From Rubrivivax sp. (lineage in GTDB: Bacteria > Pseudomonadota > Gammaproteobacteria > Burkholderiales > Burkholderiaceae_C), in contig JAHCKS010000003.1 in assembly GCA_026125665.1 (NCBI GenBank), forward strand, positions 86,331 to 150,330: a DNA stretch of 64,000 nucleotides, read 5' to 3'. The notes under the pieces were generated by a model. It did no database searches and had not been told where the DNA came from. It saw only the letters and a list, made by a program, of their open reading frames with translations. Shown here one piece after another: positions 18,740 through 62,586 of the stretch (position 1 is its first letter; each line of letters begins with the position of its first letter). The position numbers and the translations under genes are program-made.

Positions 18740-19939
18740 ATGGCTTCAAGTCGGTCAAAGTTGGCGGCGCGCACGTTGCGCGGCCGGGCCGCGATCAGCG
18801 GGGCGGGGCGATCGGCGGTCGGCCGCGTCCAGGGCCGCAGTGTGATGGCGCTCGCAAGCGACGCCGCGAAGGCGGCGCTTGCGGATGCGGGCCTCGAGCG
18901 CGGAGCCATCGACGGCGTGCTCACCAGCGTCGCGTTCGCCGCGCCCTTCCATCGGTTCAGCGTGGCGTTCAGCGAGTACTTCGGCATCGTGCCGACGTTC
19001 TCGAACACGCTGCAGGTGTCCGGCGCGACGGCGGCGACGATGTTCAACATCGCTGCGGCGGCGGTCGCCGGCGGGCTGGCCGAAAACGTGCTCGTGCTGG
19101 GCGCCGACAGCCTGCTGACCGGGCTCTCGCCCGACCTCGCGCTGCGTTCGATGACCGAGAGCCGCGACCAGCAGTACGAGATGCCTTTCGGGATCCCGGT
19201 CGCCAACACCTTCGCGATGACCGCGCATCGGCACATGAAGGAGTTCGGCACCACCGCCGAGCAGTTCGCCCGTGTCGCGGTGATCCATCGGGAACACGCC
19301 TTGCGCACGCCCGGCGCGCAGATGACCGAGCCGATCACGGTCGACGACGTGTTGAATTCCGGTTGGGTCACGACCCCCTACCACAAGCTCGACTGCTCGT
19401 TGATCTCCGACGGTGCCGCGGCGTTCATCGTCAGCGCCGCCGATCGCGTCGGCGAGTTCAAGAGCAAGCCGGTGTTCATCCTCGGGGCGGGAGAGTGCTA
19501 CACGCACGAGCACATCTTCCTGATGCCTTCATTGACGACCACCGGTGCGGTGCAGTCCAGTGCCAAGGCCTACGCGATGGCCGGGTGCTCGCCGAAGGAC
19601 ATCGACGTCGCGGGCGTCTACGACTGCTTCACCGGTACGGTGATCATGATGCTCGAGGATCTGGGCTTTTGCCCCAAGGGCGAGGGGGGGCGCTTCGTCG
19701 ATGATCGGCAGATCACCTACGGCGGCAGCATTCCCTGCAACACCCATGGAGGGTTGCTGTCATACGCGCACCCGGGCATGCCGGGCTCGCTGCTCCACTT
19801 CCTCGAGGTCGTGCAGCAGTTGCGCGGGCAGTGCGGTGAGCGTCAGGTGGCGGGTGCCGAACTCGGCCTCGTCCACAGCCTGGGTGCGGGCTTCGCGACG
19901 CAGGCGACCACCATTCTCGGCACGGAGGCCACGCTGTGA
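18740..19939 (+). CDS. Thiolase-fold protein without nucleophilic Cys (putative retro-aldolase subunit, Ltp2-like)
   Basis: A 399-residue thiolase-like/SCP2-type protein. The segment that normally holds the acyl-accepting Cys reads LQVSGATAATMF, with Ala at that position by alignment with the Cys-containing relative at 36350. The His motif survives as SYAHPGMPG. The second catalytic Cys is missing (LGAGFATQATT). It overlaps a DUF35 gene by GTGA, the pairing seen in the Ltp2/ChsH2-DUF35 aldolases of steroid side-chain degradation. C-C cleavage by retro-aldol chemistry rather than thiolysis is inferred. ATG 18740 follows a GAGG-containing leader. Confidence 0.8.
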   Translation: MASSRSKLAARTLRGRAAISGAGRSAVGRVQGRSVMALASDAAKAALADAGLERGAIDGVLTSVAFAAPFHRFSVAFSEYFGIVPTFSNTLQVSGATAATMFNIAAAAVAGGLAENVLVLGADSLLTGLSPDLALRSMTESRDQQYEMPFGIPVANTFAMTAHRHMKEFGTTAEQFARVAVIHREHALRTPGAQMTEPITVDDVLNSGWVTTPYHKLDCSLISDGAAAFIVSAADRVGEFKSKPVFILGAGECYTHEHIFLMPSLTTTGAVQSSAKAYAMAGCSPKDIDVAGVYDCFTGTVIMMLEDLGFCPKGEGGRFVDDRQITYGGSIPCNTHGGLLSYAHPGMPGSLLHFLEVVQQLRGQCGERQVAGAELGLVHSLGAGFATQATTILGTEATL

Positions 19940-20367
19940 GACGGATCGATCCGCGCGAAGCGCACGTCAAGCCGCTGCCCACCCCCGACGCGGACTCCCA
20001 GGCCTACTGGGATGCCTTGAAGGAAGGGCGCCTGATGCTCCAGCACTGCCGCGCGTGCGGCCACAAGCAGGTCTATCCGCAAGCGATCTGCCGCCATTGC
20101 GGCGCTGAAGAACTGGTGCTCGAGCCAGCCAGCGGCCGCGGCACGGTGCACTCGTTCAGCGTCGTGCACCGCGCCCCGGGGCCCGCATTCAAGCAGGACA
20201 CGCCCTACGCGGTACTGCTCGTGGAACTGGAGGAAGGGCCGCGCATGATCAGCTCACTCATGGACGCGGACCCGATGTCCGTCGTCTTCGACATGCCGGT
20301 GGCACTCGTGTGTGATCCGATCGACGGCGGCACGGTTCTGCCCCGTTTCCGACCGGCGACGCGATGA
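19936..20367 (+). CDS. DUF35 zinc-ribbon/OB-fold protein, partner of the thiolase-like protein
   Basis: A 143-residue protein with an N-terminal helix, a rubredoxin-like zinc ribbon (CRACGHKQVYPQAICRHCG, four Cys) and an OB fold (GRGTVHSFSVVHRAPGPAF). DUF35 proteins bind acyl-CoA and form complexes with thiolase-fold enzymes. The GTG start at 19936 overlaps the thiolase-like stop, with GGAGG upstream. The coupling suggests obligate complex formation. Confidence 0.88.
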   Translation: MRRIDPREAHVKPLPTPDADSQAYWDALKEGRLMLQHCRACGHKQVYPQAICRHCGAEELVLEPASGRGTVHSFSVVHRAPGPAFKQDTPYAVLLVELEEGPRMISSLMDADPMSVVFDMPVALVCDPIDGGTVLPRFRPATR

Positions 20368-20663
20368 CGACGCTGTTGGCCCACGGCCGCCGCGCCGGAG
20401 AGGGCGGCCAGCCATCGGATTACGCCCTCGAGGTGCGGTTTCGACGGCCTGCAGCGTTCCCGCGCGACACCGTCTCGTTCCCTTGTGACCCGCACGGCCA
20501 CGTCGACCTCAATGCGCTGAACGATGCGACCCGCCGCGACTACTTGTTCGCCCGCGCCCTGGCCAGGTTGGGACAGGCGGAGTTCTGGTTCGCCCGTGAA
20601 CGATCGGAGGGATGTGTCCGCATCGGTTCTGCGTCCGAGGCCGCCGCGATGCCCCGACGGTGA
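20364..20663 (+). CDS. Hypothetical protein, 99 residues
   Basis: A short frame starting at an ATG that overlaps the DUF35 stop (ATGA). It contains DLNALNDATRRDYLFARALARLGQAEFW, which looks like a helical segment, and no motif I recognise. Translational coupling and codon pattern similar to the neighbours favour a real gene, but the arginine-rich end and small size leave doubt. It could be an accessory subunit of the thiolase/DUF35 pair or a non-coding extension. Confidence 0.4.
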   Translation: MTTLLAHGRRAGEGGQPSDYALEVRFRRPAAFPRDTVSFPCDPHGHVDLNALNDATRRDYLFARALARLGQAEFWFARERSEGCVRIGSASEAAAMPRR

Positions 20664-20713
20664 CCGCGCTCACGTCGGCGGCGCGCGAGCGCAGGCCGGC
20701 CCTGGAAAGAAGC

Positions 20714-20766
20714 GCGGCGGGAGTTGGCTCCCGCCGCGAGAAGGGGTTCTCCGGCCGAACGGCCGG
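20714..20766. terminator. Two hairpins between convergent genes
   Basis: A perfect 10-bp stem GCGGCGGGAG/CTCCCGCCGC with loop TTGG (20714-20737) and a 7-bp stem CCGGCCG/CGGCCGG (20751-20766) lie between the 3' ends of the thiolase-operon and the porin gene. On the minus strand the first stem is followed by GCTTCTTTCC, a weak U-rich tract. This is a plausible terminator, most likely for the porin. Confidence 0.6.
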
Positions 20767-22220: not shown

Positions 22221-23045
22221 ATGCAGTCGGACGTCGATGACTTGCCGGTCACGGCAGGAAAGGTCGTTGGTGCGCTTGCCAGCGGACTGGCTGTCGTGCG
22301 CTACCTTTCGATCGCCGGAGCGCCGGTCGGCGTCAGCCGCATCGCACGTCATTTGGACTTGAACTCGAGCACCTGCTTCAATCTGCTCAAGACGCTGGTG
22401 CATGAGCGACTGGTCGAGTTCGACGAGTCGACCAAGACCTACCGCATCGGGCTCGGGCTGGTCGAACTCGCCAAGGGTGCGCTCGAGAGTGCCTCGTACG
22501 CGCGCCTGGTGCATCCGCATCTGGAAGCGGTGGCGGTCGGCCACAAGGTCACGGCAACCCTCTGGCAGCGCGCTTCCGACGATCGCGTGGTGCTCGTCGA
22601 TCGTGCCGATAACGACGCGACGATGCGTGTGCACATGAACATCGGGCAGCGCCTTCCGATGTTCGTTTCCGCTCTCGGCCGCACGATCGCGGCGCACGCG
22701 GGCCTGCCGCGCACGGAGTTGCGCCGCCGCTTCGACGCACTGCGCTGGGACGATCCTCCCGACTTCGAGGCCTATCTGCGCAGCGTCGATGAAGCCGGGC
22801 GAAGGGGCTATGGCGTCGATGGCGGTTGTTATGTCAGGGGCGTGACGAGCGTCTCCTCGGCCGTGCTCGACTCGTCCGGCCGGCCGGTGATGGCGATCAG
22901 CGGGACCGGTTTCACCGCACAGCTCCCGCGCGCCAAGGTCAAGCTGCTCGGCGAGAGCCTTCGCGAGCGCGCGCAGCTCGTGTCGCGCGCTCTGTCGGGC
23001 GGCGGCGTGACGGACCACCCGCGGCATCCGGACTTCAAGACATGA
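22221..23045 (+). CDS. IclR-family transcriptional regulator
   Basis: A 274-residue regulator. The N-terminal winged HTH covers GLAVVRYLSIAGAPVGVSRIARHLDLNSSTCFNLLKTL, and the C-terminal effector domain follows from about residue 90. ATG 22221 has GGAGG ten bases upstream and gives the normal family length. Its stop overlaps the ATG of the crotonase gene, so the regulator is the first gene of a long catabolic operon (to 31532) and probably controls it with the pathway substrate as ligand. Confidence 0.92.
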   Translation: MQSDVDDLPVTAGKVVGALASGLAVVRYLSIAGAPVGVSRIARHLDLNSSTCFNLLKTLVHERLVEFDESTKTYRIGLGLVELAKGALESASYARLVHPHLEAVAVGHKVTATLWQRASDDRVVLVDRADNDATMRVHMNIGQRLPMFVSALGRTIAAHAGLPRTELRRRFDALRWDDPPDFEAYLRSVDEAGRRGYGVDGGCYVRGVTSVSSAVLDSSGRPVMAISGTGFTAQLPRAKVKLLGESLRERAQLVSRALSGGGVTDHPRHPDFKT

Positions 23046-23860
23046 CGACCAGCGCAACCTCCGTCCTGCGCGAGCGCCACGGCGCCACGCTCGTGATCCG
23101 CCTGAACAAGCCCGAACTGCGCAATGCGTTCGACCTGGAGATGCGCCAGGGCATCGCCGAGGCGGTCTACGAGGCGCGCGACAGCGCCGATGTGCGCGCC
23201 GTCGTCATCACCGGGTCGGGCAAGGCCTTCTGCGCCGGCGGCGACCTGAAGTCGCTGTCGTCGGAGCAGCGCCCGGTGTTCGCCGACCGCGACCGCATCC
23301 GCCGGCTGCACGTCTGGTTCCGCGAGCTGACCAACCTCGAGAAGCCCGTCATCGCCGCGGTGCACGGCCCCGCCTACGGCGCGGGCTTCGTCCTCGCGCT
23401 GGCGAGCGACTTCGTGCTCGCCGCGCCGAGCGCGCGCTTCTGCGCGGTGTTCACCTGCGTCGGCCTGGTGCCGGACCTCGGCGCGTACTTCCTGCTGCCG
23501 CGCATCATCGGCCTGCAGCGGGCGAAAGAGCTCGTGTTCTCGGCGCGCGAGGTGGACGCCAGCGAGGCGCAGTCGCTCGGCATCGTCTACGAGGTCGTTC
23601 CCGAAGAGAGCCTGCTCGACGAGGCGCTCGCGATGGCGGCGCGCTTCCACAGCGCCGCCACGCAGGCGATCGGCATCTCGAAGAACATCCTCAATCGCTC
23701 GTTCAACCTCGACCAGGACACGCTGGCCGAGCTGGAAGCCGCCGCGCAGGCGATGGTGATGAAGACCGAGTATCACCACGACGCGGTGTCGCGGTTCCTG
23801 AACAAGCGGCCGCGCGCCTTCGAGTGGCCGGCCAAGCGCAGCCCGGGCGCGGACCGGTGA
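23042..23860 (+). CDS. Enoyl-CoA hydratase/isomerase family protein, isomerase-like active site
   Basis: A 272-residue crotonase. The oxyanion segments GKAFCAGGDL and GPAYGAGF are intact. The two Glu residues used by hydratases are absent: YGAGFVLALASD has Val at the first, and FCAVFTCVGLVPDLG has Phe at the second. An Asp in VPDLG sits where PaaG/ECI-type isomerases have their acid. I therefore favour isomerase or another crotonase reaction over simple hydration. Overlaps IclR by ATGA and E1alpha by GTGA. Confidence 0.85.
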   Translation: MTTSATSVLRERHGATLVIRLNKPELRNAFDLEMRQGIAEAVYEARDSADVRAVVITGSGKAFCAGGDLKSLSSEQRPVFADRDRIRRLHVWFRELTNLEKPVIAAVHGPAYGAGFVLALASDFVLAAPSARFCAVFTCVGLVPDLGAYFLLPRIIGLQRAKELVFSAREVDASEAQSLGIVYEVVPEESLLDEALAMAARFHSAATQAIGISKNILNRSFNLDQDTLAELEAAAQAMVMKTEYHHDAVSRFLNKRPRAFEWPAKRSPGADR

Positions 23861-24858
23861 GCGCGCCGATCGCGCCGATCGCGCCGGCCGAGCGCGACCG
23901 GCTCCTCGCGCTGTACCGGACCATGCTGCTGGTGCGCCACGCCGAGACGGCGCTCGCGCGCCTCTTCGCCGACGGCGAGGTTCCCGGCTTCATCCACCTC
24001 AGCATCGGCCAGGAGGCGATCGCCGCGGGTGTCGCTTCGGCGCTCGGGCCGGCCGACACGCTGGCCACCACGCACCGCGGCCACGGCCATGTGCTCGCGC
24101 GCGGCCTCGCGCTCGCCCCCTTCTTCAAGGAGGTGATGGGCCGCGCCGGGGGCATCTGCGGTGGGCGCGGCGGTTCGATGCACGTGGCAGACACGAGCCT
24201 GGGCATCCTGGGCGCCAACGGCATCGTCGGCGCAGGCATCCCGATCGCGCTCGGCAGCGCGATGGCGCAGTCGGTGCTCGGCACCGATGGCCTGGCGGTC
24301 GTGTTCTTCGGCGACGGCGCCATGGCCGAAGGCGTGCTGCACGAGACGCTGAACATGGCCGCGCTGTGGAAGTCGCCCTTGCTGCTGGTGTGCGAGAACA
24401 ACGGCTGGAGCGAGTTCTCGCCCACCGCGCGCCAGTTCGCCGCGCGGCTCGAAGGTCTCGCGGCGGCGTTCGGCATCGCCCACGAGCGCGTCGACGGCAA
24501 CGATGCGCTCGAGGTGGCCGACGCCGCGGCGCGCGCCGTCGCGGCCATTCGCGGCGATGGCGGACCGCGCGTGCTCGAGTGCATGACGCACCGCGTGCGC
24601 GGCCACTTCGAGGGCGACCCGCAGAAGTACCGCAGCGCCGACGAACTCGACCCCGGCGCGAAGGGCGATCCGCTCGACCGTGCGCGCGCCGCGCTCGCGG
24701 CCGCGGGCATGCCGCCCACCACGCTGGACGCGGCCGCGCAGGCGGTGGCGGCGCAAATCGAGGCTGCCATCGCGGCCGCGCGCGCCGACGCGGCGCCGGC
24801 TTGGGAGCCGGCGCTGGCGGATGTCTATGCCGCGGTCCACACCGCGGAGGCGCGATGA
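23857..24858 (+). CDS. 2-oxoacid/acetoin-type dehydrogenase E1 alpha subunit (TPP-dependent)
   Basis: A 333-residue protein with the thiamine diphosphate motif GDGAMAEGVLHETLNMAALW through CENNG, and GRGGSMHVADTSLGILGANGIVGAGIPIALG typical of acetoin/pyruvate/branched-chain E1 alpha subunits. The GTG start overlaps the preceding stop (GTGA). It forms an alpha2beta2 decarboxylase with the next gene. The acyl donor (2-oxoacid or acyloin/diketone) cannot be told from sequence. Confidence 0.92.
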   Translation: MSAPIAPIAPAERDRLLALYRTMLLVRHAETALARLFADGEVPGFIHLSIGQEAIAAGVASALGPADTLATTHRGHGHVLARGLALAPFFKEVMGRAGGICGGRGGSMHVADTSLGILGANGIVGAGIPIALGSAMAQSVLGTDGLAVVFFGDGAMAEGVLHETLNMAALWKSPLLLVCENNGWSEFSPTARQFAARLEGLAAAFGIAHERVDGNDALEVADAAARAVAAIRGDGGPRVLECMTHRVRGHFEGDPQKYRSADELDPGAKGDPLDRARAALAAAGMPPTTLDAAAQAVAAQIEAAIAAARADAAPAWEPALADVYAAVHTAEAR

Positions 24859-25856
24859 ACGCCGTTGCCCAGGCCACCCCGCCGGCCGTCGAGATGAAGA
24901 CCATGGCCGCCGTGGCGATGGCGCTGCGCGACGCGATGGCCGACGACCCGCGCGTCGTCGTGATGGGCGAGGACATCGGCGCACCCGGCGGTTCGTTCAG
25001 GGCCACGCGCGGGCTGCTCGACGAATTCGGCCCGCGGCGCGTGATCGACACGCCGATCTCCGAGGCTTCGATCGTCTCTGCCGCGGTCGGCGCCGCGCTG
25101 TCGGGGCTGCGCCCGGTGGTCGAGATCATGTTCATGGACTTCGTCACCCTGGCGATGGACGCGCTTGTGAACCAGGCGGCCAAGGCGCGCTTCATGTTCG
25201 GCGGCCAATGCAGCGTGCCGATGGTGCTGCGCACGCCGCACGGCGGCGGCCTCAACGCCGGGCCGCAGCACTCGCAGTGCCTCGAAGTCTGGCTCGCCCA
25301 CGTGCCGGGGCTGAAGGTCGTCTGCGCGGCGACGCCGGGCGATGCCTACGCGCTGCTGCGCGCGGCGATCCGCGACCCCGACCCGGTGGTGTTCGTCGAG
25401 CACAAGGGCCTGTACGGCGCCAAGGGCCTCGTCGATCGCACGGCCGTCGACGCGATCGGCAAGGCGCGCATCGTGCGTGCCGGCCGCGACGCCACCGTCG
25501 TGACCTACGGGGCCACCGTCGCCGCGTCGCTCGAAGCTGCGCGCCAGCTTGCCGGCGAGGGTGTCGAGGTCGAGGTGATCGACCTGCGCAGCCTGCAGCC
25601 GTGGGACCGCGCCACCGTGCTGGGCTCGCTCGCGCGCACCCATCGCGCGGTGGTCGTGCACGAGGCGGTGCAGGCCTTCGGCGTCGGCGCCGAGATCGCT
25701 GCGACGCTGGCCGACGAGGGTTTCGACGATCTCGACGCGCCGGTGGTGCGCGTCGGCGCGCCCTTCATGCCGGTGCCATTCGCCAAGTCCCTGGAGCAGG
25801 GCTACAACGTCGGCGCGGCCGGCATCGTCGCCGCGCTGCGGCGCACCCTCGAATGA
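24855..25856 (+). CDS. 2-oxoacid/acetoin-type dehydrogenase E1 beta subunit
   Basis: A 333-residue transketolase-fold beta subunit. Landmarks are VVVMGEDIGAPGGSFRATRGL, DTPISEASIVSAAVGAALSGLRPVVEIMFMDF and the C-terminal VEVIDLRSLQPWDRATVLGSLARTHRAVVVHEA. It starts at an ATG overlapping the E1 alpha stop. Together with E1 alpha and the E2 gene at 26660 it makes a dehydrogenase complex lacking a local E3. Confidence 0.93.
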   Translation: MNAVAQATPPAVEMKTMAAVAMALRDAMADDPRVVVMGEDIGAPGGSFRATRGLLDEFGPRRVIDTPISEASIVSAAVGAALSGLRPVVEIMFMDFVTLAMDALVNQAAKARFMFGGQCSVPMVLRTPHGGGLNAGPQHSQCLEVWLAHVPGLKVVCAATPGDAYALLRAAIRDPDPVVFVEHKGLYGAKGLVDRTAVDAIGKARIVRAGRDATVVTYGATVAASLEAARQLAGEGVEVEVIDLRSLQPWDRATVLGSLARTHRAVVVHEAVQAFGVGAEIAATLADEGFDDLDAPVVRVGAPFMPVPFAKSLEQGYNVGAAGIVAALRRTLE

Positions 25857-25875
25857 ACCCGCGGAAGCGAACGCC

Positions 25876-26655
25876 ATGTCCAACATCCTGAGCGAGAAGC
25901 GCGGCCCCGTCGGCCTGCTGACGATCAACCGCCCGAAGACGCTGAACGCGCTCGACGTGGCGACGATGCACGAGCTCGACGCGGCGCTCGCCGCGTTCGA
26001 GGCCGACGACGCGGTGCGCGCGATCGTCGTCACCGGCGCGGGCGAGCGCGCGTTCGTCGCCGGCGGCGACATCGCCGACCTCGACAGCCGCCAGGGTCTG
26101 GCGCACTACCAGCAGTTCGCCGAGGTGATCCACAAACTGATCGGCCGCTTCGAACGCTGCGACAAACCCACGCTGGGCGCGATCAATGGCTGGGCGCTCG
26201 GCGGCGGCACCGAGCTGCTGCTCGCGCTGGACATCCGCCTCGTGGCCGAGGAGGCGAAGCTCGGCCTGCCCGAGATCACGCTCGGCCTGTTCCCGGGCGC
26301 CGGCGGCACGCAGCGGCTGATCCGGCAGATCCCGCTGTGCCGCGCGAAGGAGCTGATGTTCACCGGCGACCAGATCACCGCCGCCGAGGCGGTGGCGCTC
26401 GGCCTCGTGAACCGCGCGGTGCCGCGAGCCGGGCTGCTCGACGAGACGCTCGCGCTGGCCGCGCGCATCGCCGAGAAGTCGCCGCTGGTGCTCAAGCTGC
26501 TCAAGCGCACGCTGCGCGACGGCCTCGAGATGCCGCTGCCGCAGGCGCTGGCGCATGAGCAGGCCATGATCGGCCTGGTACTCGACAGCCGCGACGCGCA
26601 CGAGGGCTGCCGCGCCTTCCTCGAAAAGCGCAAGGCGAACTTCACCGGGGCCTGA
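25876..26655 (+). CDS. Enoyl-CoA hydratase
   Basis: A 259-residue crotonase with both hydratase Glu residues: GGGTELLLALD and GLPEITLGLFPGAGGTQRL. The oxyanion motif is AFVAGGDIADLDS. It is a true hydratase candidate (trans-2-enoyl-CoA to 3-hydroxyacyl-CoA), inserted between E1 beta and E2 with 19- and 4-bp gaps, so the dehydrogenase complex and beta-oxidation steps are made together. Confidence 0.93.
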   Translation: MSNILSEKRGPVGLLTINRPKTLNALDVATMHELDAALAAFEADDAVRAIVVTGAGERAFVAGGDIADLDSRQGLAHYQQFAEVIHKLIGRFERCDKPTLGAINGWALGGGTELLLALDIRLVAEEAKLGLPEITLGLFPGAGGTQRLIRQIPLCRAKELMFTGDQITAAEAVALGLVNRAVPRAGLLDETLALAARIAEKSPLVLKLLKRTLRDGLEMPLPQALAHEQAMIGLVLDSRDAHEGCRAFLEKRKANFTGA

Positions 26656-26659
26656 GCGC

Positions 26660-28021
26660 GTGCGCCACGCCTGGCTGTTGCCCAAGCTCGGCCTCACGAT
26701 GACCGAGGGCGTGCTGGCCGAGTGGACGGTGGCGCCCGGCGCACGCTTCAAGGCCGGCGACTGCGTCTTCGTCGTCGAGAACGACAAGGCCGCCAGCGAG
26801 GTGGCGGCGGAGCACGACGGCGTGATGGAAGCCCCGCTGGTGCAGGTGGGCGACACGGTGGCCGTGGGCACGGTGATCGGGCATTGGGACGACGGGCTCG
26901 ATGCCGCGCCCGCGGCGGCAGCACCGGCGGGAAGCGGCGCGCGGCAGCCCGCGGCTGAGCCATCCGCCGGGCGCCGGGCGGGAAGCGAAGCGCGGCAGTC
27001 CGACGCTGCGCCGCCCGGTGGTCGCCGCCCGGTCACGCCGTGGGCGCGCAAGCTGGCCAACCGCCATGGCGTCGATCTGGCTGCGGTCGCCGGCTCGGGC
27101 CCCGGCGGGCGTGTGCGGGGGCGCGACGTCGAGAAGGCCGCATCGGCAATGCCGGCGGCGGCTGGCGGTGCTGCCGTGCATGCGCCCGCGGGTGCGCCCG
27201 CGCGTGCGCCTGTGCATGCGCCTGTGCATGCGCCCGAGCATGCGCCCGTGCAGGCACCCGTGTATGCGCCGCAGCCCGACGCCGGGACTGCGCGGGTGTT
27301 GCCCGCAACGCCGCTGCCCCTCGTGCCATTGCCCGGCGGCACGGTGCAGCCGTTCAGCGCGCTCCGGCACGCCGTCGCGCGGCGTCTCGTCGCGGCCAAG
27401 CAGCAGATCCCCCACTTCTACCTCGCGCGTGAGGTGGAAGTCTCGGCGCTGCTCGACCTGCACAAGCGGCTGAAGGATCCCGAGGCCGCGCCGCGCCTCA
27501 CGCTCAACCACTTCATCGTCGCGGCGGTCGGCCGGGCGCTCGTCGCGCATCCGGAACTCAACCGCGTCTGGTGCGAGGAGGGCGCACTGCGGCTCGACGC
27601 ACCCGATGTCGGCGTCGCGGTGCATACCGAGCGCGGCCTCGTCGTGCCGGTGCTGCGCAACGCGGGCCGCCTGGGCGTCGGCACGCTGGCGCGGCAGGCC
27701 GGAGCGCTGGTCGAGCGCGCATGCAAGGGCCGCCTCTCCGCGGACGAGATGGCGGGCGCCGCCATCACCGTGTCCAACGCCGGCATGCACGGCCTGGCCG
27801 CGATGGCCTCGATCATCGTGCCGGGCCAGTCGATGATCCTCGGCGTGGGCGCCGTGCGCGAGCTCTTCAGGCCCGACGCCGCCGGCGCCCCGGCGCTGCG
27901 GCGCGAGATCGTGCTGACCCTCTCGCTGGACCACCGCGTGCTCGACGGCGTGGAGGGCGCCGCGCTGCTGGCGGCCGTGGTCGATGCCCTGGCGCACCCC
28001 ACGCGGCTGCTGTTCGACTGA
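26660..28021 (+). CDS. Dihydrolipoamide acyltransferase E2 component
   Basis: A 453-residue E2. The lipoyl domain covers about residues 1-78 with the lipoylated Lys at residue 43 (VENDKAASE). A peripheral-subunit-binding domain follows (TPWARKLANRHGVDLAAVAGSGPGGRVRGRDV). An Ala/Pro linker with repeated xAP units spans about residues 170-205. The catalytic domain ends with LDHRVLDGVEGA, containing the His and Asp of the transacylase site. It starts at GTG 26660, 4 bp after the hydratase. It transfers the acyl group from E1 to CoA. Confidence 0.93.
   Translation: MRHAWLLPKLGLTMTEGVLAEWTVAPGARFKAGDCVFVVENDKAASEVAAEHDGVMEAPLVQVGDTVAVGTVIGHWDDGLDAAPAAAAPAGSGARQPAAEPSAGRRAGSEARQSDAAPPGGRRPVTPWARKLANRHGVDLAAVAGSGPGGRVRGRDVEKAASAMPAAAGGAAVHAPAGAPARAPVHAPVHAPEHAPVQAPVYAPQPDAGTARVLPATPLPLVPLPGGTVQPFSALRHAVARRLVAAKQQIPHFYLAREVEVSALLDLHKRLKDPEAAPRLTLNHFIVAAVGRALVAHPELNRVWCEEGALRLDAPDVGVAVHTERGLVVPVLRNAGRLGVGTLARQAGALVERACKGRLSADEMAGAAITVSNAGMHGLAAMASIIVPGQSMILGVGAVRELFRPDAAGAPALRREIVLTLSLDHRVLDGVEGAALLAAVVDALAHPTRLLFD
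27176..27270. repeat. Minisatellite in the E2 linker (12-bp units, GTGCATGCGCCT-like)
   Basis: About eight imperfect 12-bp units encode successive V/A/E-H-A-P tetrapeptides (APVHAPVHAPEHAPVQAPVYAP). Two adjacent copies are identical. Such arrays change length by slippage while staying in frame, here only altering the mobility of the swinging lipoyl arm. Confidence 0.8.
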
Positions 28022-28042
28022 CACCGCCGACAGAGCACATCC

Positions 28043-29215: not shown

Positions 29216-29236
29216 AGACTCGCCGGGTAGCCTGTG

Positions 29237-30748: not shown

Positions 30749-30749
30749 A

Positions 30750-35891: not shown

Positions 35892-36353
35892 CTACCGGGT
35901 CTGGGTGTGGGCGCCGCTTGCTTCGCGCGCGCTGACCTGGCGGCGCGCCGAGAAGAGCGGGCCATCGGCGTACAGCAGCGTGACCAGCTCGACGCGGCTG
36001 TCCAGCGGGATCGGCGCGTCGTCCTCGAGGAGCCCGCAGCAGATCCGCACGCCTTCGTCGAGATCGACGATCCCCACGTGAAGCGGGCCCACTCCTTCGA
36101 ACACCTTGGGTGGTGCGTGGATCACGGTCCGCGAATAGAGCATGCCCCGGCCGCCAAGGTCGGTCCACGCCAGCTTGCTCGACCAGCAGTGCGGGCAAAT
36201 CGGCTTGGGCGGGAACGTGTATCGCGCGCAGTTGTCGCACCGCGTCGTCGTCATGCGGCCGAGCGCGAGTGCATCCCAGAACGGCCGGGTCGCTTCGGTC
36301 ACCCGGGGAGGCCAGGCGCGTCGGCGACCGACCGGGATGATGTCCATGCTCAT
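35892..36353 (-). CDS. DUF35 zinc-ribbon/OB-fold protein
   Basis: A 153-residue protein with zinc ribbon CDNCARYTFPPKPICPHC and OB fold GRGMLYSRTVIHAPPKVF. Its ATG overlaps the stop of the thiolase gene (ATGA). This pair is the only one of the four whose thiolase keeps its Cys, so DUF35 here may support a true thiolase or a related acyltransferase. Confidence 0.88.
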   Translation of the reverse strand: MSMDIIPVGRRRAWPPRVTEATRPFWDALALGRMTTTRCDNCARYTFPPKPICPHCWSSKLAWTDLGGRGMLYSRTVIHAPPKVFEGVGPLHVGIVDLDEGVRICCGLLEDDAPIPLDSRVELVTLLYADGPLFSARRQVSAREASGAHTQTR

Positions 36354-52600: not shown

Positions 52601-52631
52601 CACCACAGCCAACCTTTCCCAGGAAGCAAAG

Positions 52632-56734: not shown

Positions 56735-57496
56735 ATGCGCATCGGCAGCGTCGAATTCGAGAAGAAGGGCCGCGTCGCGGTCCTGACCCTGGACGAGCCC
56801 ACCAAGCTCAACGCCATCTCCGTCGGTATCCGCCAGGGTGTCACCGAAGGCCTCGCGATGGTCGACGCCGACCCCGAGATCCGCGTCGGCATCCTCACCG
56901 GTCGCGGCGACAAGGCCTTCTGCGCCGGCGCCGACATCAGCAGCTTTCCCGAGACGCCGGAGCAGGCACGCGACTTCATCGCCAGCGTGCTGCCGGTGCT
57001 CGAGGCGCCCGAGCGCTGCCGCAAGCCGCTGATCGCGGCGGTCAACGGCATCGCCTTCGGCGGCGGCTTCGAGCTGGCGATCGCCTGCGACTTCATCCTC
57101 GCCTCCGAACGCGCCAAGTTCGGCGTACCCGAGATCCAGCTCGGGCTGCTGCCCGGCTTCGCGCTGCTGCGGCTGCACCAGATCGTTGGCCGCCCCAAGG
57201 CCAAGGAGATGAGCATGCTCGGCGAGCCCATCCCGGCCGCCGAGGCGGTGAGCCTGGGCATCGCGCTGCGCACCGTGGCCCCCGAGAAGCTGATGGACGA
57301 GGCGATGGCCTTCGCCGAGAAGCTCGCGGCCAAGCCGCAGATGGCGCTGCAGATGGCCAAGTCGTTCTACAACAAGGGCATCGGCGGCGACGACATGCGC
57401 TATGCGATCGACGCCTTTCCGTTCCTGTTTCAGACCGACGACGTGAAGGAAGGCGTCGCCGCCTTCCGAGCCAAGCGCAAGCCGGTCTTCAGGTGA
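56735..57496 (+). CDS. Enoyl-CoA hydratase
   Basis: A 253-residue crotonase with GDKAFCAGADISS and both Glu residues (GGGFELAIACD, GVPEIQLGLLPG). The usual GAGGTQRL is replaced by GFALLRLHQIVG, which may shape the acyl pocket. GAGGAG precedes the ATG. First gene of the operon with two thiolase-like/DUF35 pairs. Confidence 0.92.
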   Translation: MRIGSVEFEKKGRVAVLTLDEPTKLNAISVGIRQGVTEGLAMVDADPEIRVGILTGRGDKAFCAGADISSFPETPEQARDFIASVLPVLEAPERCRKPLIAAVNGIAFGGGFELAIACDFILASERAKFGVPEIQLGLLPGFALLRLHQIVGRPKAKEMSMLGEPIPAAEAVSLGIALRTVAPEKLMDEAMAFAEKLAAKPQMALQMAKSFYNKGIGGDDMRYAIDAFPFLFQTDDVKEGVAAFRAKRKPVFR

Positions 57497-57506: not shown

Positions 57507-58634
57507 GTGAGCCGGGCCTTGCTGCACAACGCCTTCTGCGATGCCTGGGGCATCGAGGTGCCGATCTTCCTGGCCGGCATGGGCGTCGGCGGCCGCGCCA
57601 CGCCGCCGGCGCTGGTGGCCGCGGTGTCGCAGGCGGGTGGCCTGGGCGTGCTCGGCTGCTCGGGGCTGTCGCCGGAGGAGACGCGCCGGCGCATCCGCGA
57701 GGTACGCACGCTGACCGACAAGCCCTTCGGCGTCGACCTGCTGCTGCCGGCGCGCATCGCCGACGCGCCGCCCACCCGCACGGCGGTGCGCGAGGAGATC
57801 CGCGCGCGCTTCCCGAAGCATGCCGCGTTCGTGCAGGAGCTGATTCGCCGCCACGGCCTGCCCGACGTGAAGCCGGCCGACGAGACGGTGGTCAACCTCG
57901 AGTACGCGAAGTCGGTCCTCAAAGTCATCTTCGACGAGCGCGTGCCGGTCTTCGCCGCCGGCCTTGGCGACCCCGACTTCCTGCTCGAACGCGCCCGTGC
58001 GCAGGGCATGAAGCTCATCGGCCTGTCTGGCTCGGTGCGCAACGCGGTGCGGCAGAAGAAGAGCGGCGTCGACGCCGTCGTGGCGCAGGGCACCGAGGCG
58101 GGCGGCCACACTGGCACCGTGGCCTCGCTGCCGCTGATCCCGCAGGTGGTCGATGCGGTGAGCCCGACACCGGTGCTCGCCGCGGGCGGCATCGCCGACG
58201 GCCGCGGCATCGTCGCCGCGCTCGCGCTCGGCGCGCAGGCGGTGTGGATCGGCACCGCATTCCTCGTCGCCGACGAGGGGCAGCTGTTCGACGCCTGCAA
58301 GGACCAGATCGTCGCCGCGGACTCCGAGGCCTTTCGCATCAGCAAGGTCTGGACGGGCAAGACGGTGCGCGCGTTCCACGGCGAGATCGCGCAGGCCTGG
58401 GCCGAATCGGGCCTGCCGACGCTGGAGACGCCGCACCAGCGCATCCTGATGGAGGACTTCCTGGCCGCGGCGCTCGCGGCGGGGCGGCACGACCTCTTCT
58501 ACAACATCGCCGGCCAAGCGGGCGGGCTGGTGAAGGCGCGGCGGCCGGCGAAGGACATCATGGCCGAGCTGGTCGACGGTGCCGTCGAGCAGCTGCGCCG
58601 CTTGCAGCGCGACCTCGTCGTCAGCCTGCCCTGA
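57507..58634 (+). CDS. Nitronate monooxygenase-family flavoprotein
   Basis: A 375-residue FMN TIM barrel. SQAGGLGVLGCSGLSPEE is the N-terminal part, EAGGHTG holds the conserved His region, and PVLAAGGIADGRGIVAALALGAQAVWIGTAFL is the phosphate-binding end. Members oxidise nitronates; others act as enoyl reductases in lipid pathways. Position among acyl-CoA genes makes an acyl or flavin-dependent oxidoreductase role possible. GTG start 10 bp after the hydratase. Confidence 0.88.
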   Translation: MSRALLHNAFCDAWGIEVPIFLAGMGVGGRATPPALVAAVSQAGGLGVLGCSGLSPEETRRRIREVRTLTDKPFGVDLLLPARIADAPPTRTAVREEIRARFPKHAAFVQELIRRHGLPDVKPADETVVNLEYAKSVLKVIFDERVPVFAAGLGDPDFLLERARAQGMKLIGLSGSVRNAVRQKKSGVDAVVAQGTEAGGHTGTVASLPLIPQVVDAVSPTPVLAAGGIADGRGIVAALALGAQAVWIGTAFLVADEGQLFDACKDQIVAADSEAFRISKVWTGKTVRAFHGEIAQAWAESGLPTLETPHQRILMEDFLAAALAAGRHDLFYNIAGQAGGLVKARRPAKDIMAELVDGAVEQLRRLQRDLVVSLP

Positions 58635-58655: not shown

Positions 58656-59807
58656 ATGGCCAGCAAAGCCATCGTCAGCGGCGTGTACGACACCCAGGTC
58701 GGCTCGCTGCCGGAAAGCACCTGCATGTCGCTGCACACCGAGGCCAGCCTCGGCGCGCTCGCCGACGCGGGCCTGAAGCTGTCGGACATCGACGGCCTGC
58801 TCACCGCCTACTCGTTCGCGTCGCCGCAGCTGATGCTCGGCGGCGTGCTCGCCGAATACCTCGGCATCCGGCCCAAGGTCAACGCCTCCATCTGCATGGG
58901 CGGCATGACAGGCGGGCTGCTGGTGCGGCACGCCGAGTCGCTGGTGCGCTCGGGCATGTGCCGCCACGTGCTGTGCGTGACGGGCGACAACCGGCTCAGC
59001 GGCATGGGCGAGAAGGTGCAGGCCGCGCTGGCCGACGTGGGCCATGCGCAGTACGAGCAGCCCTACGGCATGAGCGTGCCCGCGGCGTTCGCGATGGCCG
59101 CGCAGGTCTACTTCCACGAAGGCTGGCTGAATGGCGACCACCTCGCGGCGGTGGCGGTGAACCAGCGAGCGAACGCGGCGCTGCACCCCCAGTCGCACAT
59201 GAGGAAGCCGATCACGATGGACGACGTGCGCAGGTCCAAGGTGATCGCCTCGCCGCTGCGCATGCTCGACTGCTGCCTCGTCTCCGACGGCGCGGCCGCG
59301 GTGATCGTGAGCGCCGCCGAGACCGGGCGCGACCGCCCGAAGCGCGCCGTCGAACTGCTCGCCACCGGCGAGGGCCACACCCACGAGCACATCTTCGCGG
59401 CGCCGTCGCTGGTCGATTTCGGCTGCCGCGAGTCGGTGGCCGACGCGCTGGGCCACGCCGGGCTGAAGCATGCCGACGTCGACTGCGCGCACATCTATGA
59501 CTGCTTCACCAGCACGCTGCTGATCCAGCTCGAGTCGATGGGCTTCTACGAGCGCGGCGCCGCCGGGCCGGCGGCGCTGGCCGGCGAGTTCGCCATCGGC
59601 GGCAAGTTCCCGGTCAACACCAACGGCGGGCTGCTGTCGTACGGCTCGTCGGGCGCGGCCGGCGGCATGTTCCATGTGGTCGAGGCGGTGCGCCAACTGC
59701 GCGGCGAGTGCGGGCCGCGCCAGGTGAAGGACGCCGAAGTGGCGCTCGCGCACACGCTGGGCGGCATCTTCTCGGGCCACTGCTCGATCCTGCTGGGGAG
59801 GGCCTGA
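58656..59807 (+). CDS. Thiolase-fold protein without nucleophilic Cys (putative retro-aldolase subunit)
   Basis: A 383-residue thiolase-like protein. The nucleophile segment reads SICMGGMTGGLLVRHA; by register with NGCTGGLALEHA of the 36350 protein, Met occupies the Cys site (a Cys three residues before is out of place). The usual His of GHP is Ser (LSYGSSGAAGG), so neither thiolase nor claisen chemistry is expected. DUF35 gene follows after 2 bp. Ltp2-type C-C lyase or scaffold role is inferred. Confidence 0.8.
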   Translation: MASKAIVSGVYDTQVGSLPESTCMSLHTEASLGALADAGLKLSDIDGLLTAYSFASPQLMLGGVLAEYLGIRPKVNASICMGGMTGGLLVRHAESLVRSGMCRHVLCVTGDNRLSGMGEKVQAALADVGHAQYEQPYGMSVPAAFAMAAQVYFHEGWLNGDHLAAVAVNQRANAALHPQSHMRKPITMDDVRRSKVIASPLRMLDCCLVSDGAAAVIVSAAETGRDRPKRAVELLATGEGHTHEHIFAAPSLVDFGCRESVADALGHAGLKHADVDCAHIYDCFTSTLLIQLESMGFYERGAAGPAALAGEFAIGGKFPVNTNGGLLSYGSSGAAGGMFHVVEAVRQLRGECGPRQVKDAEVALAHTLGGIFSGHCSILLGRA

Positions 59808-59809
59808 CG

Positions 59810-60223
59810 ATGGCCGACGTGCAAGCCAAGCCGGCGCCGGTGCCCGACGGCATCAGCCGCCACTATTGGGAAGGCGCCAACCTCGGCGAATTCCGCTACC
59901 AGCGCTGCGGCGCCTGCGGCAAGGCGCAGTTCTACGCCCGCTCGGCCTGCGTGCATTGCCACACGACGCAATCGCAATGGCAGAAGGCCGGGGGCGGCGG
60001 CCGGATCGCCAGCTTCTCCGTCATCCACCGCGCGCCGCTGCCCGCGTTCGCCGGCGACGTGCCCTACGTGCTGGCGCTGGTCGATCTGGACGAGGGCTTG
60101 CGCTTCATGTGCAACGTGCTGCGCTGCGACCCGGCGCAGGTGCGCATCGGCATGCCGGTGCGCGTGTGTTTCGAGTCGCGCCCCGGCAGCGAGCAGACGA
60201 TTCCTCAAGTGGAGCCCGCATGA
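59810..60223 (+). CDS. DUF35 zinc-ribbon/OB-fold protein
   Basis: A 137-residue protein with zinc ribbon CGACGKAQFYARSACVHC and OB fold GRIASFSVIHRAPLPAF. It follows the thiolase-like gene by 2 bp and overlaps the first MaoC gene by ATGA. The order thiolase-like, DUF35, MaoC is that of the separate parts of Ltp2 and ChsH2. Confidence 0.88.
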   Translation: MADVQAKPAPVPDGISRHYWEGANLGEFRYQRCGACGKAQFYARSACVHCHTTQSQWQKAGGGGRIASFSVIHRAPLPAFAGDVPYVLALVDLDEGLRFMCNVLRCDPAQVRIGMPVRVCFESRPGSEQTIPQVEPA

Positions 60224-60621
60224 GCGAAGGACCGGTCTTTAACTACGCTCACTACGAGCCCGGCAGGCACTACGGTGCGCGTGACTTCGTGGTCGACGAA
60301 TCCACCGTCTCGAAGTGGCGCAGCGTCTACCCCGACGACGACGACCCCGGCGTGATGCCGGCCGGCATGCTTGCGATGATCGTCATCGATGCCGTGCTGA
60401 CGCTCAACTCGCCGCGCCCGCCCGGCGGCGTGCACGGCGGCCAGACCTTCGACGTCAAGCGCATGCCGCGCATCGGCCAGACCATCCGCACCGACGTGTG
60501 GTGCCTCGACAAGGAGATCAAGAAGGACCGCAAGTGGGTGCGCGTGCGCAGCGAGACGCGCGCCGTCGGCTCGGGTGCACTGCTGTTCACCGGCATCATG
60601 ACCACGCTGGTCGCGCAGTGA
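60220..60621 (+). CDS. MaoC-like hot-dog protein lacking catalytic residues
   Basis: A 133-residue hot-dog protein. YGARDFVVDESTVSKWRSVYPDDDD and GGQTFDVKRMPRIGQTIRTDVWCLDKEIKK fit the fold. The D-x-N-P-x-H hydratase motif is absent. It is immediately followed by an intact MaoC protein, so I read it as the non-catalytic subunit of a heteromeric hydratase. Confidence 0.75.
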   Translation: MSEGPVFNYAHYEPGRHYGARDFVVDESTVSKWRSVYPDDDDPGVMPAGMLAMIVIDAVLTLNSPRPPGGVHGGQTFDVKRMPRIGQTIRTDVWCLDKEIKKDRKWVRVRSETRAVGSGALLFTGIMTTLVAQ

Positions 60622-60635: not shown

Positions 60636-61019
60636 ATGCACGCGCAGCTGAAGCCGTCGACCAAGCGCGTCGACTTCGACACCGTCATGAAGTACGCGGC
60701 GGTGACGAACGACTACAACCCCATCCACGTCGACAAGGCGTTCGCCGCCAAGAGCCCGATGGGCGGCATCATCGCCCACGGCACGATGTCGGTGGCGCTG
60801 ATCTGGCAGGCGCTGAAGAACACGCTCGGTGTGCAGGCGCTGAATCGCATCCACCTGGAGATCAAGTTCGTGCAGCCGGTGCGGATCGACGACGACGTCA
60901 CCGGCGGCGGCGAGTTGCGCATGGGCAGCGAGCCGCCGGTCTACGAGGTCTGGGTGCGCAATGCCAAGGGCCAGGACGTCATCAAGGGCACGGCGACCCT
61001 GAAGCCGCAAGGAAGGTGA
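60636..61019 (+). CDS. MaoC-family enoyl-CoA hydratase, catalytic residues present
   Basis: A 127-residue hot-dog protein with TNDYNPIHVDKAFAAKSPMGGIIAHGTMS, which has the Asp and His of (R)-hydratases. It begins 14 bp after the degenerate MaoC gene, AGGGAGGA lying upstream, and ends one base before the second thiolase-like gene. It probably hydrates the enoyl-CoA that the thiolase-like/DUF35 complexes then cleave. Confidence 0.88.
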   Translation: MHAQLKPSTKRVDFDTVMKYAAVTNDYNPIHVDKAFAAKSPMGGIIAHGTMSVALIWQALKNTLGVQALNRIHLEIKFVQPVRIDDDVTGGGELRMGSEPPVYEVWVRNAKGQDVIKGTATLKPQGR

Positions 61020-61020
61020 C

Positions 61021-62187
61021 ATGAGCTTGAAAAACACCGCCTGCATCGCCGGCGCCTACGAGCACCCGATCCGCCGCGCCGACGACAAGTCGGTGGCGCA
61101 GCTGCACGCCGAGGTCGCGCGCGGCGCGCTCGCCGATGCCGGGCTGACGATCAAGGACGTCGACGGCTACTTCTGTGCCGGCGACGCGCCGGGGCTGGGC
61201 GCGATGTCGATGGTCGACTACCTGGGGCTCAAGCTGCGCCATGTCGACAGCACCGAGACCGGCGGCTCCTCGTACGTCGTGCACGTCGCGCACGCCGCGG
61301 CCGCCATCGCCGCCGGGCGCTGCAACGTGGCGCTGATCACGCTGGCCGGCCGGCCCAAGGCCGAGGGCATGGCCACCGGCACCGCGCCGCGCAACTACGG
61401 CGCCGCGCCCGACGTGCCCTTCGAGCTGCCGTACGCGCCGACCACGGTGAACATGTACGGCATGGCGGCGATGCGCCACATGCACGAGCACGGCACGACG
61501 AGCGAGCAGCTGGCGTGGATCCGCGTCGCGGCGTCGCACCATGCGCAGCACAACCCGCACGCGATGGTGCGCGAGGTGGTCACGGTGAAGGACGTGGTCG
61601 GCTCGCCGATGATCGCCGACCCGCTTCACCGCCTGGACTGCTGCGTCATCAGCGACGGCGGCGGCGCGCTGGTCGTCGTGCGGCCGGAGATCGCGCGCAG
61701 CCTGAAGCGCCCGGTGGTCAACGTCATCGGCACCGGCGAGTACCTGCGCAACCAGAGCGGCGGCAAGGTCGACCTGCTGACCACCGGCGCCGCCTGGACC
61801 GGCAAGGCGGCGTTCACCGAGGCCGGCGTGAAGCCGGCGGACATCCAGTACGCGTCGATCTACGACAGCTTCACGATCACCGTGCTGCTGACGCTGGAGG
61901 ACCTGGGCTTCTGCGCCAAGGGCCAGGGCGGGCGCTTCGTCAGCGACGGCAACCTGATCGCCGGCACCGGCAAGCTGCCGTTCAACACCGACGGCGGCGG
62001 GCTGTGCAGCAACCATCCCGGCAATCGCGGCGGGCTCACCAAGGTGCTGGAGGCGGTGCGCCAGGTGCGCGGCGAGGCGCATCCCAAGGTGCAGGTGAAG
62101 AACTGCGATCTGGCGCTGGCGCACGGCACCGGCGGTTCGCTGGGCAGCCGGCACGGCAGCGGTACGATCATCCTGGAGAGGGAGTAA
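61021..62187 (+). CDS. Thiolase-fold protein without nucleophilic Cys (putative retro-aldolase subunit)
   Basis: A 388-residue thiolase-like protein. The nucleophile region STETGGSSYVVHVAHA has Ser in the Cys register. The His motif remains as CSNHPGNRGG. The last motif is HGTGGSLGSRHGS without Cys. DUF35 gene follows after 6 bp. It is divergent from the thiolase-like protein at 58656 in the same operon, so two different aldolase-type complexes may be made. Confidence 0.8.
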   Translation: MSLKNTACIAGAYEHPIRRADDKSVAQLHAEVARGALADAGLTIKDVDGYFCAGDAPGLGAMSMVDYLGLKLRHVDSTETGGSSYVVHVAHAAAAIAAGRCNVALITLAGRPKAEGMATGTAPRNYGAAPDVPFELPYAPTTVNMYGMAAMRHMHEHGTTSEQLAWIRVAASHHAQHNPHAMVREVVTVKDVVGSPMIADPLHRLDCCVISDGGGALVVVRPEIARSLKRPVVNVIGTGEYLRNQSGGKVDLLTTGAAWTGKAAFTEAGVKPADIQYASIYDSFTITVLLTLEDLGFCAKGQGGRFVSDGNLIAGTGKLPFNTDGGGLCSNHPGNRGGLTKVLEAVRQVRGEAHPKVQVKNCDLALAHGTGGSLGSRHGSGTIILERE

Positions 62188-62193
62188 GCGATC

Positions 62194-62586
62194 ATGGCCG
62201 AGAAGGAACGCAAGCTCCCCGCGTCGGTGACCAGCCCGGAAACCGAGGAGTATTGGGCAGCCGCCAAGGAAGGCAAGCTGCTGGTGAAGAAGTGCACCGC
62301 CTGCAACAGGACGCACCACTACCCGCGCAGCCTGTGCCCGTACTGCTTCAGCGACAAGACGGAGTGGACGACGGCGTCGGGCAAGGGCGTGCTCTATTCC
62401 TACAGCGTCATGCGCCGCGCGCCGATCCCGTACGCGCTGGCCTATGTCACGCTGGCCGAGGGCACGACCATGATGACCAACATGGTCGATTGCGACTTCG
62501 ACAAGCTGAAGATCGGCCAGGCGGTGAGGGTGGTGTTCAAGCCGACCGACGGCGGCGGCGCGCTGCCCTGCTTCACGCCGGCTTAG
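62194..62586 (+). CDS. DUF35 zinc-ribbon/OB-fold protein
   Basis: A 130-residue protein with zinc ribbon CTACNRTHHYPRSLCPYC and OB fold GKGVLYSYSVMRRAPIPYALAYVTLAEG. Partner of the thiolase-like protein at 61021-62187. Last gene before the REP-like terminator. Confidence 0.88.
   Translation: MAEKERKLPASVTSPETEEYWAAAKEGKLLVKKCTACNRTHHYPRSLCPYCFSDKTEWTTASGKGVLYSYSVMRRAPIPYALAYVTLAEGTTMMTNMVDCDFDKLKIGQAVRVVFKPTDGGGALPCFTPA

Follow-up and report, generated by a model that had tools for sequence, protein, structure and literature searches.

Acyl-CoA aldolases of the thiolase fold are already known, and the concept as such is not new: cholesterol side-chain degradation employs TcLtp2 together with the DUF35 protein ChsH2 (PDB 6ok1), and Comamonas testosteroni cleaves the bile-acid side chain with CtSal and its DUF35 partner CtShy (PDB 9myr; PMC12329534). 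According to the accessible text of PMC12502768, the steroid gene set, consisting of a two-part dehydrogenase, a two-part MaoC hydratase and an aldolase with its DUF35 partner, removes propionyl-CoA and leaves a C17 ketone. The non-steroid pathway for ibuprofen likewise has a thiolase-like pair, IpfD/IpfE, and a step described as retro-aldolase, acting in this case on a ring dihydrodiol; the accessible part of PMC9195938 says that the retro-aldolase splits a CoA-linked dihydrodiol into propionyl-CoA and 4-isobutylcatechol, and ascribes the propionyl-CoA to the thiolase encoded by ipfDE. Here we have analysed a 64-kb stretch of Rubrivivax sp. DNA (GCA_026125665.1, contig JAHCKS010000003.1; G000:C192:86331-150330), referred to as the window, from an assembly of 6.28 Mb in 268 contigs that is 88.6% complete. 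It encodes four large thiolase-fold proteins, named P1, P3, P5 and P7, whose respective DUF35 partners are P2, P4, P6 and P8 (Table 1). We consider it likely that three of these pairs, P1/P2, P5/P6 and P7/P8, form heteromeric retro-aldolases for acyl-CoAs, related in type to Ltp2 and Sal but in clades of their own, and act on non-steroid substrates.

The four pairs and their active sites

The initial annotation of the window had proposed four thiolase-fold/DUF35 pairs, and the coordinates of the open reading frames (ORFs) and the Pfam matches confirm that they are real. All four large proteins match Thiolase_C_1 (PF22691) above the curated cut-off, and all four partners match zf-ChsH2 and OB_ChsH2_C above theirs, each with a C-x2-C-x10-C-x2-C zinc ribbon. 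Four of the 11 strong PF22691 places of the whole assembly (two weak places being left out) fall inside the window, where about 0.11 would be expected by chance (Poisson p ~6e-6, calculated by hand), a value that has to be read with the reservation that the window was picked out because of these very genes.

To compare the active sites, 118 thiolase-fold hits in 104 loci were reduced to 104 unique ORFs by removing 4 partial and 10 identical ones, which entered an alignment together with P1, P3, P5, P7 and eight PDB chains. In the zebrafish SCP2 thiolase, BbsB and two archaeal thiolases, the Cys that acts as nucleophile occupies alignment column 123, which is Gly in P1, P3, P5, P7, CtSal and TcLtp2; whether a different loop could bring a Cys into the active site was assessed on the alignment alone. 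The initial annotation had set the Ala, Met and Ser of three window proteins against the Cys of NGCTGG in P3, and had counted three of the four proteins as lacking the Cys. That comparison was one residue off, since those residues lie in column 124, and the count has to be corrected: none of the four has a Cys in column 123. A Cys in column 124 is found in P3 and also in 4 of the 89 ORFs described below as Gly/Tyr. By our own residue count from printed alignments, the Gly of column 123 is Gly89 of CtSal, and the accessible text of PMC12329534 describes a Gly of CtSal as equivalent to the nucleophilic Cys of thiolases.

The loss of the nucleophile goes together with a change in column 420, where thiolases have the His of an HDxF motif and Gly-type proteins have the Tyr of a YDxF motif. 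The combination of columns 123 and 420 is Gly/Tyr in 89 of the 104 ORFs, Cys/His in 9, Cys/Asn in 5 and Gly/His in one, so that 89 of the 90 Gly-type ORFs carry Tyr where thiolases have His. A second set of 40 further ORFs contains 25 Gly/Tyr, 7 Cys/His and 8 others (three Gly/Ala and one each of Gly/Phe, Arg/Tyr, Cys/Tyr, Ser/Tyr and Cys/Gln), among which the Arg/Tyr and Ser/Tyr ORFs may be misaligned. It should be noted that both sets are skewed toward relatives of P5 and P7. Among the loci retrieved with the PF22691 model (n=30, tallied by hand), Gly/Tyr (6; L076-L080, L103), Cys/His (6; L081-L085, L104) and Cys/Asn (4) all occur, two of the remaining loci belonging to the window's own assembly and 12 having yielded no ORF that passed the filter. 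As a separate observation, three thiolase-fold/DUF35 loci (L133, L134 and L137; G029:C44, G013:C117 and G012:C7:405213-406394) have the motif AGNF and lack both the nucleophilic Cys and the Tyr of YDxF.

The Tyr, Asp and Phe of the YDxF motif are invariant across 32 P5-family and 20 P7-family sequences. The accessible text of PMC12329534 reports that Tyr302 and Cys304 of CtSal (motif YDCY) are required for activity, that the C304S variant is inactive, that the motif Tyr is the proposed base, and that the matching Tyr of TcLtp2 is catalytic. P1 and P5, both with YDCF, have the counterparts of Tyr302 and Cys304, and P7 (YDSF) has Ser at the Cys position and His at the position of Ltp2 Tyr344. 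Ltp2 itself differs in combining YDHF with Tyr344, where the window proteins combine YDCF or YDSF with Ser or His; likewise, the residue matching Gln352 of Sal is Ser in P5, with His at this place in P1 and P7. Both P1 and P7 keep the GHP-loop His of thiolases. Within the P5 family, positions 283/331 are Cys/Ser in 23 ORFs and Ser/His in 19 more distant ones. A candidate acid can be named in nearly all cases: in every one of the 89 Gly/Tyr ORFs the first site is Cys or Asp, or the second is His, and 24 of the 25 Gly/Tyr ORFs of the second set have Cys, Asp, His or Tyr at either site (L142 has none). The idea that the YDxF Cys and the GHP-loop His are mutual stand-ins was rejected as too weak, because there are only three independent changes, with which a sign test cannot reach 0.05.

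A DUF35 gene adjoins 85 of the 89 Gly/Tyr genes of the first set and 22 of the 25 of the second. In the first set it adjoins none of the 14 Cys-type genes; in the second it stands beside four of the seven Cys/His genes, the one Cys/Tyr and the one Cys/Gln gene, and DUF35 was therefore dropped as a marker of aldolases. BbsAB, the benzoylsuccinyl-CoA thiolase (PDB 7pxp), also combines a thiolase-fold protein with a DUF35 protein, but BbsB has both the Cys in column 123 and HDAF, which are found in none of the four window proteins.

Phylogeny and structural relatives

For the tree, the motif columns were removed and rows at least 85% identical to others were dropped, leaving 65 rows; it is a quick tree with no bootstrap. 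A branch with a Shimodaira-Hasegawa-like approximate likelihood ratio test (SH-aLRT) value of 98 unites P1, P5, P7, TcLtp2, CtSal, 4u4e, 39 more Gly/Tyr rows and one Gly/His row. The other side holds 19 rows, including P3, and the Cys thiolases lie apart from the aldolase clade. P1, P5 and P7 thus group with Ltp2, Sal and 4u4e and not with the Cys thiolases. All three fall in neither the Ltp2 sub-clade nor the Sal sub-clade.

The closest PDB chains by sequence are 4u4e, CtSal and Ltp2 for P1 and P7, and 4u4e, CtSal, the archaeal thiolase 7yvy and Ltp2 for P5. AlphaFold models were obtained for P5 (predicted local distance difference test, pLDDT, 82.8; 32 sequences) and P7 (pLDDT 81.3; 20 sequences), and for both the top two Foldseek matches are 4u4e and then CtSal, to which P5 is 31% and P7 33% identical in these alignments. 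The chain 4u4e, from Sphaerobacter thermophilus, is the best PDB match of P1, P5 and P7 and shares the motifs of P7 (GGS, YDSF, HPG); our literature search found no paper on it. The accessible text of PMC12329534 proposes TbSLP as an aldolase. The acyltransferases PhlC and MucC are also among the thiolase-fold relatives matched by the window proteins.

The pairs thus resemble CtSal-CtShy in fold, Gly, YDxF Tyr and DUF35 partner, but the zinc ribbon of CtShy is of the C3H1 type, whereas the DUF35 proteins of the window have a C4 ribbon and are encoded by separate genes. With TcLtp2-ChsH2 they share the fold, the Gly, the YDxF Tyr, a C4-ribbon DUF35 and nearby MaoC hydratase genes; the ChsH2 type is, however, a MaoC-DUF35 fusion, whereas in the window MaoC and DUF35 are separate. 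The accessible text of PMC12502768 reports that hydratase and aldolase activity were retained when the C. testosteroni MaoC and DUF35 parts were made as separate proteins.

The P3/P4 pair

P3 had been taken in the initial annotation as an ordinary Cys thiolase, which does not hold: it has Gly in column 123 with Cys only in the next one, and YAPC where thiolases have HD[CA]F. It is therefore no valid thiolase control. By hand count and with gaps excluded, its segment from the preceding strand to the end of the following helix equals that of BbsB in length. The GHP loop is kept (RGHPA), and so is the motif Tyr, but the Asp and Phe of YDxF are lost. Its thiolase-type relatives L107 and L108 (41% and 40% identity), for which BbsAB is the nearest type, keep ACS and HDAF, and P3 therefore diverges from them in both motifs. 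In the best tree it lies outside the aldolase clade on a long branch, and constraining it into the aldolases was not rejected (approximately unbiased test, p-AU 0.4). A near copy (99%) was found in one of 80 other genomes, G012, and at 1e-60 there were no copies in the other 93 genomes scanned. Judged by these sequence features, P3 is neither a standard thiolase nor a standard aldolase, and it is excluded from the aldolase claim.

Gene context

The P5-P8 block of the window begins with a crotonase gene and an NMO/FabK-like flavoprotein gene, followed by P5-P6-MaoCa-MaoCb-P7-P8. On contig C234 of the same assembly (L001), the order P1-P2-short-chain dehydrogenase/reductase (SDR)-enoyl-CoA hydratase-NMO-P5-P6-MaoCa-MaoCb-P7-P8 is contained in about 8.5 kb. 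The DNA of the two blocks is 89% identical over 5.9 kb, and that of the P1-P2 copies 84% over 1.6 kb; the P1 copy (L001:3736-4941; G000:C234) is 96% identical and the P2 copy 84%. More than any other observation, this grouping indicates that the Cys-less pairs of the aldolase clade, all three of them, probably serve one pathway. The C234 block may be a second locus of the cell or belong to a co-binned strain: P5 occurs once, at 98%, in the relative G012 (99% complete), and Schlegelella koreensis has the block twice (L019 and L021, with P7 shortened in L021).

When named genomes were scanned with four aligned P5 sequences as query, 44 loci were obtained. In 41 of these, P5 is at least 56% identical over most of its length, which is not the case in L055, L056 and L057; the nearest locus is in a Burkholderiales metagenome-assembled genome (98% identity). 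Near these 41 P5 genes we found a DUF35 gene in 40 loci, MaoC b in 34, NMO in 16, P7 in 14, E1 beta in 11, and E1 beta or a ligase in 14, all of which are lower bounds, several loci ending at contig ends.

In the window, an operon for E1/E2 components, an acyl-CoA dehydrogenase, a ligase and an SDR lies 25 kb upstream of the block. In other genomes its orthologues adjoin P5, making it a possible partner operon: the block directly follows such an operon in L027 and L028, and with one gene between in L017. In P. xenovorans LB400, P. unamae, Caldovatus and L054, the E1 genes come after P5 and the MaoC genes and have the same orientation, and in Azospirillum argentinense the E1 alpha and beta genes lie about 8 kb from P5 on the opposite strand, with an SDR and an AMP-ligase gene downstream. 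Within the sequence retrieved around each locus, a Baeyer-Villiger-type monooxygenase gene is present in 6 of 48 loci, all from roseobacters (five of the 44 loci and a plasmid of R. indicus). These enzymes are 84-89% identical to that of L044, whose best PDB match is OTEMO (579 bits), with phenylacetone monooxygenase next (534 bits).

Proteins related to P7 are common: among 72,556 plasmid records, 575 contain a match, and in 44 of these the identity is 60-80%. On the Delftia acidovorans plasmid NZ_CP065697.1 (L111), P7-P8 orthologues lie between copies of IS1071 with ligase, dehydrogenase, MaoC, crotonase and SDR genes, and a second acetyl-CoA acetyltransferase/OB-fold pair is found beyond the second IS1071. 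Beside the P7-P8 end of two blocks (L001:12648-15929 and L015:14309-17620), three genes judged by eye resemble glutamate-mutase-type E, S (B12-binding) and MutL.

Table 1. Features of the window relevant to the thiolase-fold/DUF35 pairs
Feature	Positions	Strand	Remark
P1, thiolase-fold protein lacking the Cys nucleophile (Gly in column 123; motifs YDCF and AHPG)	18740..19939	+	aldolase clade
P2, DUF35 partner of P1, C4 zinc ribbon	19936..20367	+	
IclR, crotonase, E1 alpha, E1 beta, crotonase, E2, acyl-CoA dehydrogenase, AMP-ligase, SDR	22221..31532	+	possible partner operon
P4, DUF35 partner of P3, C4 zinc ribbon	35892..36353	-	
P3, divergent protein of the thiolase fold (Gly in column 123 with Cys as next residue; YAPC; GHP kept)	36350..37543	-	outside aldolase clade; alternative TTG start gives end coordinate 37612
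Crotonase-family protein, first gene of P5-P8 block	56735..57496	+	also in L001
NMO/FabK-like flavin oxidoreductase	57507..58634	+	16/41 P5 loci
P5, thiolase-fold protein lacking the Cys nucleophile (Gly in column 123; motifs YDCF and GSSG)	58656..59807	+	
P6, DUF35 partner of P5, C4 zinc ribbon	59810..60223	+	adjoins P5 in 40/41 loci
MaoC-like a	60220..60621	+	no Pfam or NCBIfam match; named after the annotation (MaoC family dehydratase) given at its orthologue positions in R. indicus and A. argentinense
MaoC b, hydratase-type, NDYNPIH motif	60636..61019	+	34/41 P5 loci
P7, thiolase-fold protein lacking the Cys nucleophile (Gly in column 123; motifs YDSF and NHPG)	61021..62187	+	NCBIfam PRK08142 above its cut-off
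P8, DUF35 partner of P7, C4 zinc ribbon	62194..62586	+	

Other genes of the window include a group at 667-8833 in which visual inspection of the N-terminal residues suggests a sugar-type ABC transporter and two sulfatase-like proteins, and a PagL-type lipid A 3-O-deacylase gene (17908-18519) between an outer-membrane efflux gene and P1/P2. Upstream of the aldolase block, positions 47480-53543 hold MmgE/PrpD, two mesaconyl-CoA-hydratase-like MaoC genes, a CitE-type lyase (top NCBIfam match the itaconate C-C lyase RipC, below cut-off) and apparent CoA-transferase and TRAP-transporter genes; this route would cleave a tertiary hydroxyacyl-CoA using an unrelated lyase. P8 is followed by a luciferase-like monooxygenase gene (62774-63970), whose top PDB match, 3,6-diketocamphane 1,6-monooxygenase, is weak (87 bits), and which was not found after the block in L001 or L015.

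Discussion

The initial annotation had read the pairs as possible aldolytic enzymes of acyl-CoA degradation. For P1, P5 and P7 this reading stands on the Gly/Tyr combination, the tree, the stand-alone DUF35 partners and the P5-MaoC loci, some of which also contain genes for a ligase and an acyl-CoA dehydrogenase, although not on the residue alignment or the use of P3 with which it was originally argued. The gene sets are best read as hydratase plus retro-aldolase modules for 3-hydroxyacyl-CoAs beyond the reach of beta-oxidation, and their acid-degradation neighbours suggest that Ltp2-like chemistry also serves to break down other acids with a branch or a ring. From these data we infer the following reaction. 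The substrate would be a CoA-activated acid whose 3-carbon is hindered, being branched or in a ring. A ligase would make the thioester, an acyl-CoA dehydrogenase the 2-enoyl-CoA, and the MaoC pair would add water at C3. The YDxF Tyr would then remove the proton of the 3-hydroxyl, upon which the C2-C3 bond would break and the enolate be protonated by an acid, putatively the Cys of YDCF or, where this Cys is Ser or Ala, the His of the GHP loop. The products would be acetyl-CoA (or propionyl-CoA) and a ketone, an aldehyde or a 2-oxo acid, and the DUF35 subunit would be required to complete the enzyme. The distinction from ordinary beta-oxidation would lie in the hydrated 3-carbon, which bears no hydrogen or is hindered and would therefore not permit oxidation and thiolysis.

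Several observations weigh against this proposal. The Cys that CtSal requires is Ser in P7 and in 19 of 42 P5-family ORFs (>55% identity), and since CtSal C304S is inactive, the acid in these proteins must be another residue. The pairing of Gly with Tyr is imperfect, the eight exceptions in the second set including one Cys/Tyr, and a DUF35 gene also accompanies most Cys/His genes of that set. The tree is a quick one, and for P5 Foldseek places archaeal thiolases above Ltp2; with thiolases so close behind, the fold alone cannot separate functions. We found no reported activity for any close relative, 4u4e being titled a putative thiolase. Finally, MaoC b was not seen in 7 of the 41 P5 loci, and the SDR genes near P7 orthologues are compatible with 3-oxoacyl-CoA chemistry too.

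This last point leads to the possibility that the Cys-less proteins cleave 3-oxoacyl-CoAs by a retro-Claisen reaction in which CoA or water attacks directly, replacing the thiolase of beta-oxidation. The SDR genes on the Delftia and Variovorax plasmids are accompanied by ligase, dehydrogenase and hydratase genes, the Variovorax stretch lists no other thiolase (the Delftia stretch lists the second pair mentioned above), SDR genes are also present in L001 and in the E1/E2 operon, and P1 and P7 retain the GHP-loop His. We nevertheless regard this as unlikely, given that the thiolase His is replaced by Tyr almost throughout the Gly-type ORFs, as in two proven aldolases, and that P1, P5 and P7 cluster with those aldolases. 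Quite improbable is a role other than bond cleavage of either kind, the proteins binding acyl-CoA for decarboxylation or PhlABC-like acyl transfer, or being non-catalytic, with the pairs kept for another reason. The kinship with PhlC and MucC and the absence from P7 of the Cys needed by CtSal would fit such a role, but the invariance of the YDxF Tyr, Asp and Phe in both families speaks against it; of the alternatives, this is the one to which we give least credence.

A steroid or polycyclic triterpenoid pathway, with its ring genes elsewhere or missing from the incomplete assembly, would explain why the gene set is that of the chs/ltp2 locus as described in the accessible text of PMC12502768 (dehydrogenase, two-part MaoC hydratase, aldolase and DUF35). 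Sal- and Ltp2-like genes do occur in other genomes of the genus (L066, L067 and L068), and crotonases and NMO-type flavoproteins are found in steroid C/D-ring loci. However, none of the 11 strong PF22691 genes of the assembly, P1, P5 and P7 included, falls in the Ltp2 or Sal sub-clades, and KshA_C, the one steroid marker searched, gave a single marginal and partial match in this 88.6% complete assembly (24.5 bits, cut-off 23.3). The locus therefore looks non-steroid, in agreement with the initial annotation. The E1/E2 and OTEMO-like neighbours, moreover, are not known to be steroid genes. The pairs are thus probably non-steroid, and side-chain aldolases of such a pathway are a rather improbable explanation.

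Within the retro-aldolase proposal, a more specific scheme can be put forward tentatively, and we would give it a minor chance of being right: P5/P6 and the MaoC pair would form a general bypass for a blocked 3-carbon, making a tertiary alcohol and removing acetyl-CoA, while the fate of the other product would be lineage-specific. In roseobacters, the OTEMO-like monooxygenase might open an alicyclic ketone released by the aldolase, or produce a methyl-branched chain for cleavage by the aldolase. For betaproteobacteria and Azospirillum, one can imagine as product a 2-oxo acid or acyloin used by the adjoining E1/E2 complex, in which case the substrate would be a 2-substituted succinate or similar. 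These links to the E1/E2 complex or the OTEMO-like enzyme are a guess from gene neighbourhood. The scheme would also imply that the proton donor of the P5 family moved between positions 283 and 331. If true, it would provide genes for cleavages known only as chemistry, such as trimethylpimelyl-CoA to isobutyryl-CoA in camphor breakdown, steps that the accessible text of PMC6027186 calls poorly characterised.

The P1, P5 and P7 clades and their non-steroid setting look new. In the literature searched, mostly without subscription journals, we found neither these clades as probable non-steroid aldolases nor conserved hydratase-aldolase gene sets, and in that on cyclohexaneacetate and naphthenic acids no aldolase gene of this kind. 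Cyclohexaneacetate is degraded by way of a hydroxyacyl-CoA lyase. The loci described here supply concrete gene sets (MaoC pair, aldolase, DUF35, and partly ligase and dehydrogenase) for studying how acids with a blocked 3-carbon are shortened, and the natural series of active sites is useful for locating the proton donor. In the accessible text of PMC12502768, Horinouchi reads the many unassigned ChsH1H2E1E2Ltp2-like enzymes of Pseudomonadota as a sign of widespread steroid degradation, and the P1, P5 and P7 clades suggest caution with this reading. If our proposal is true, some genes annotated as "thiolase" or "acetyl-CoA acetyltransferase" beside an OB-fold protein encode carbon-carbon lyases, and reconstructions that treat them as beta-oxidation thiolases, or as steroid genes by their likeness to Ltp2, would therefore be wrong.

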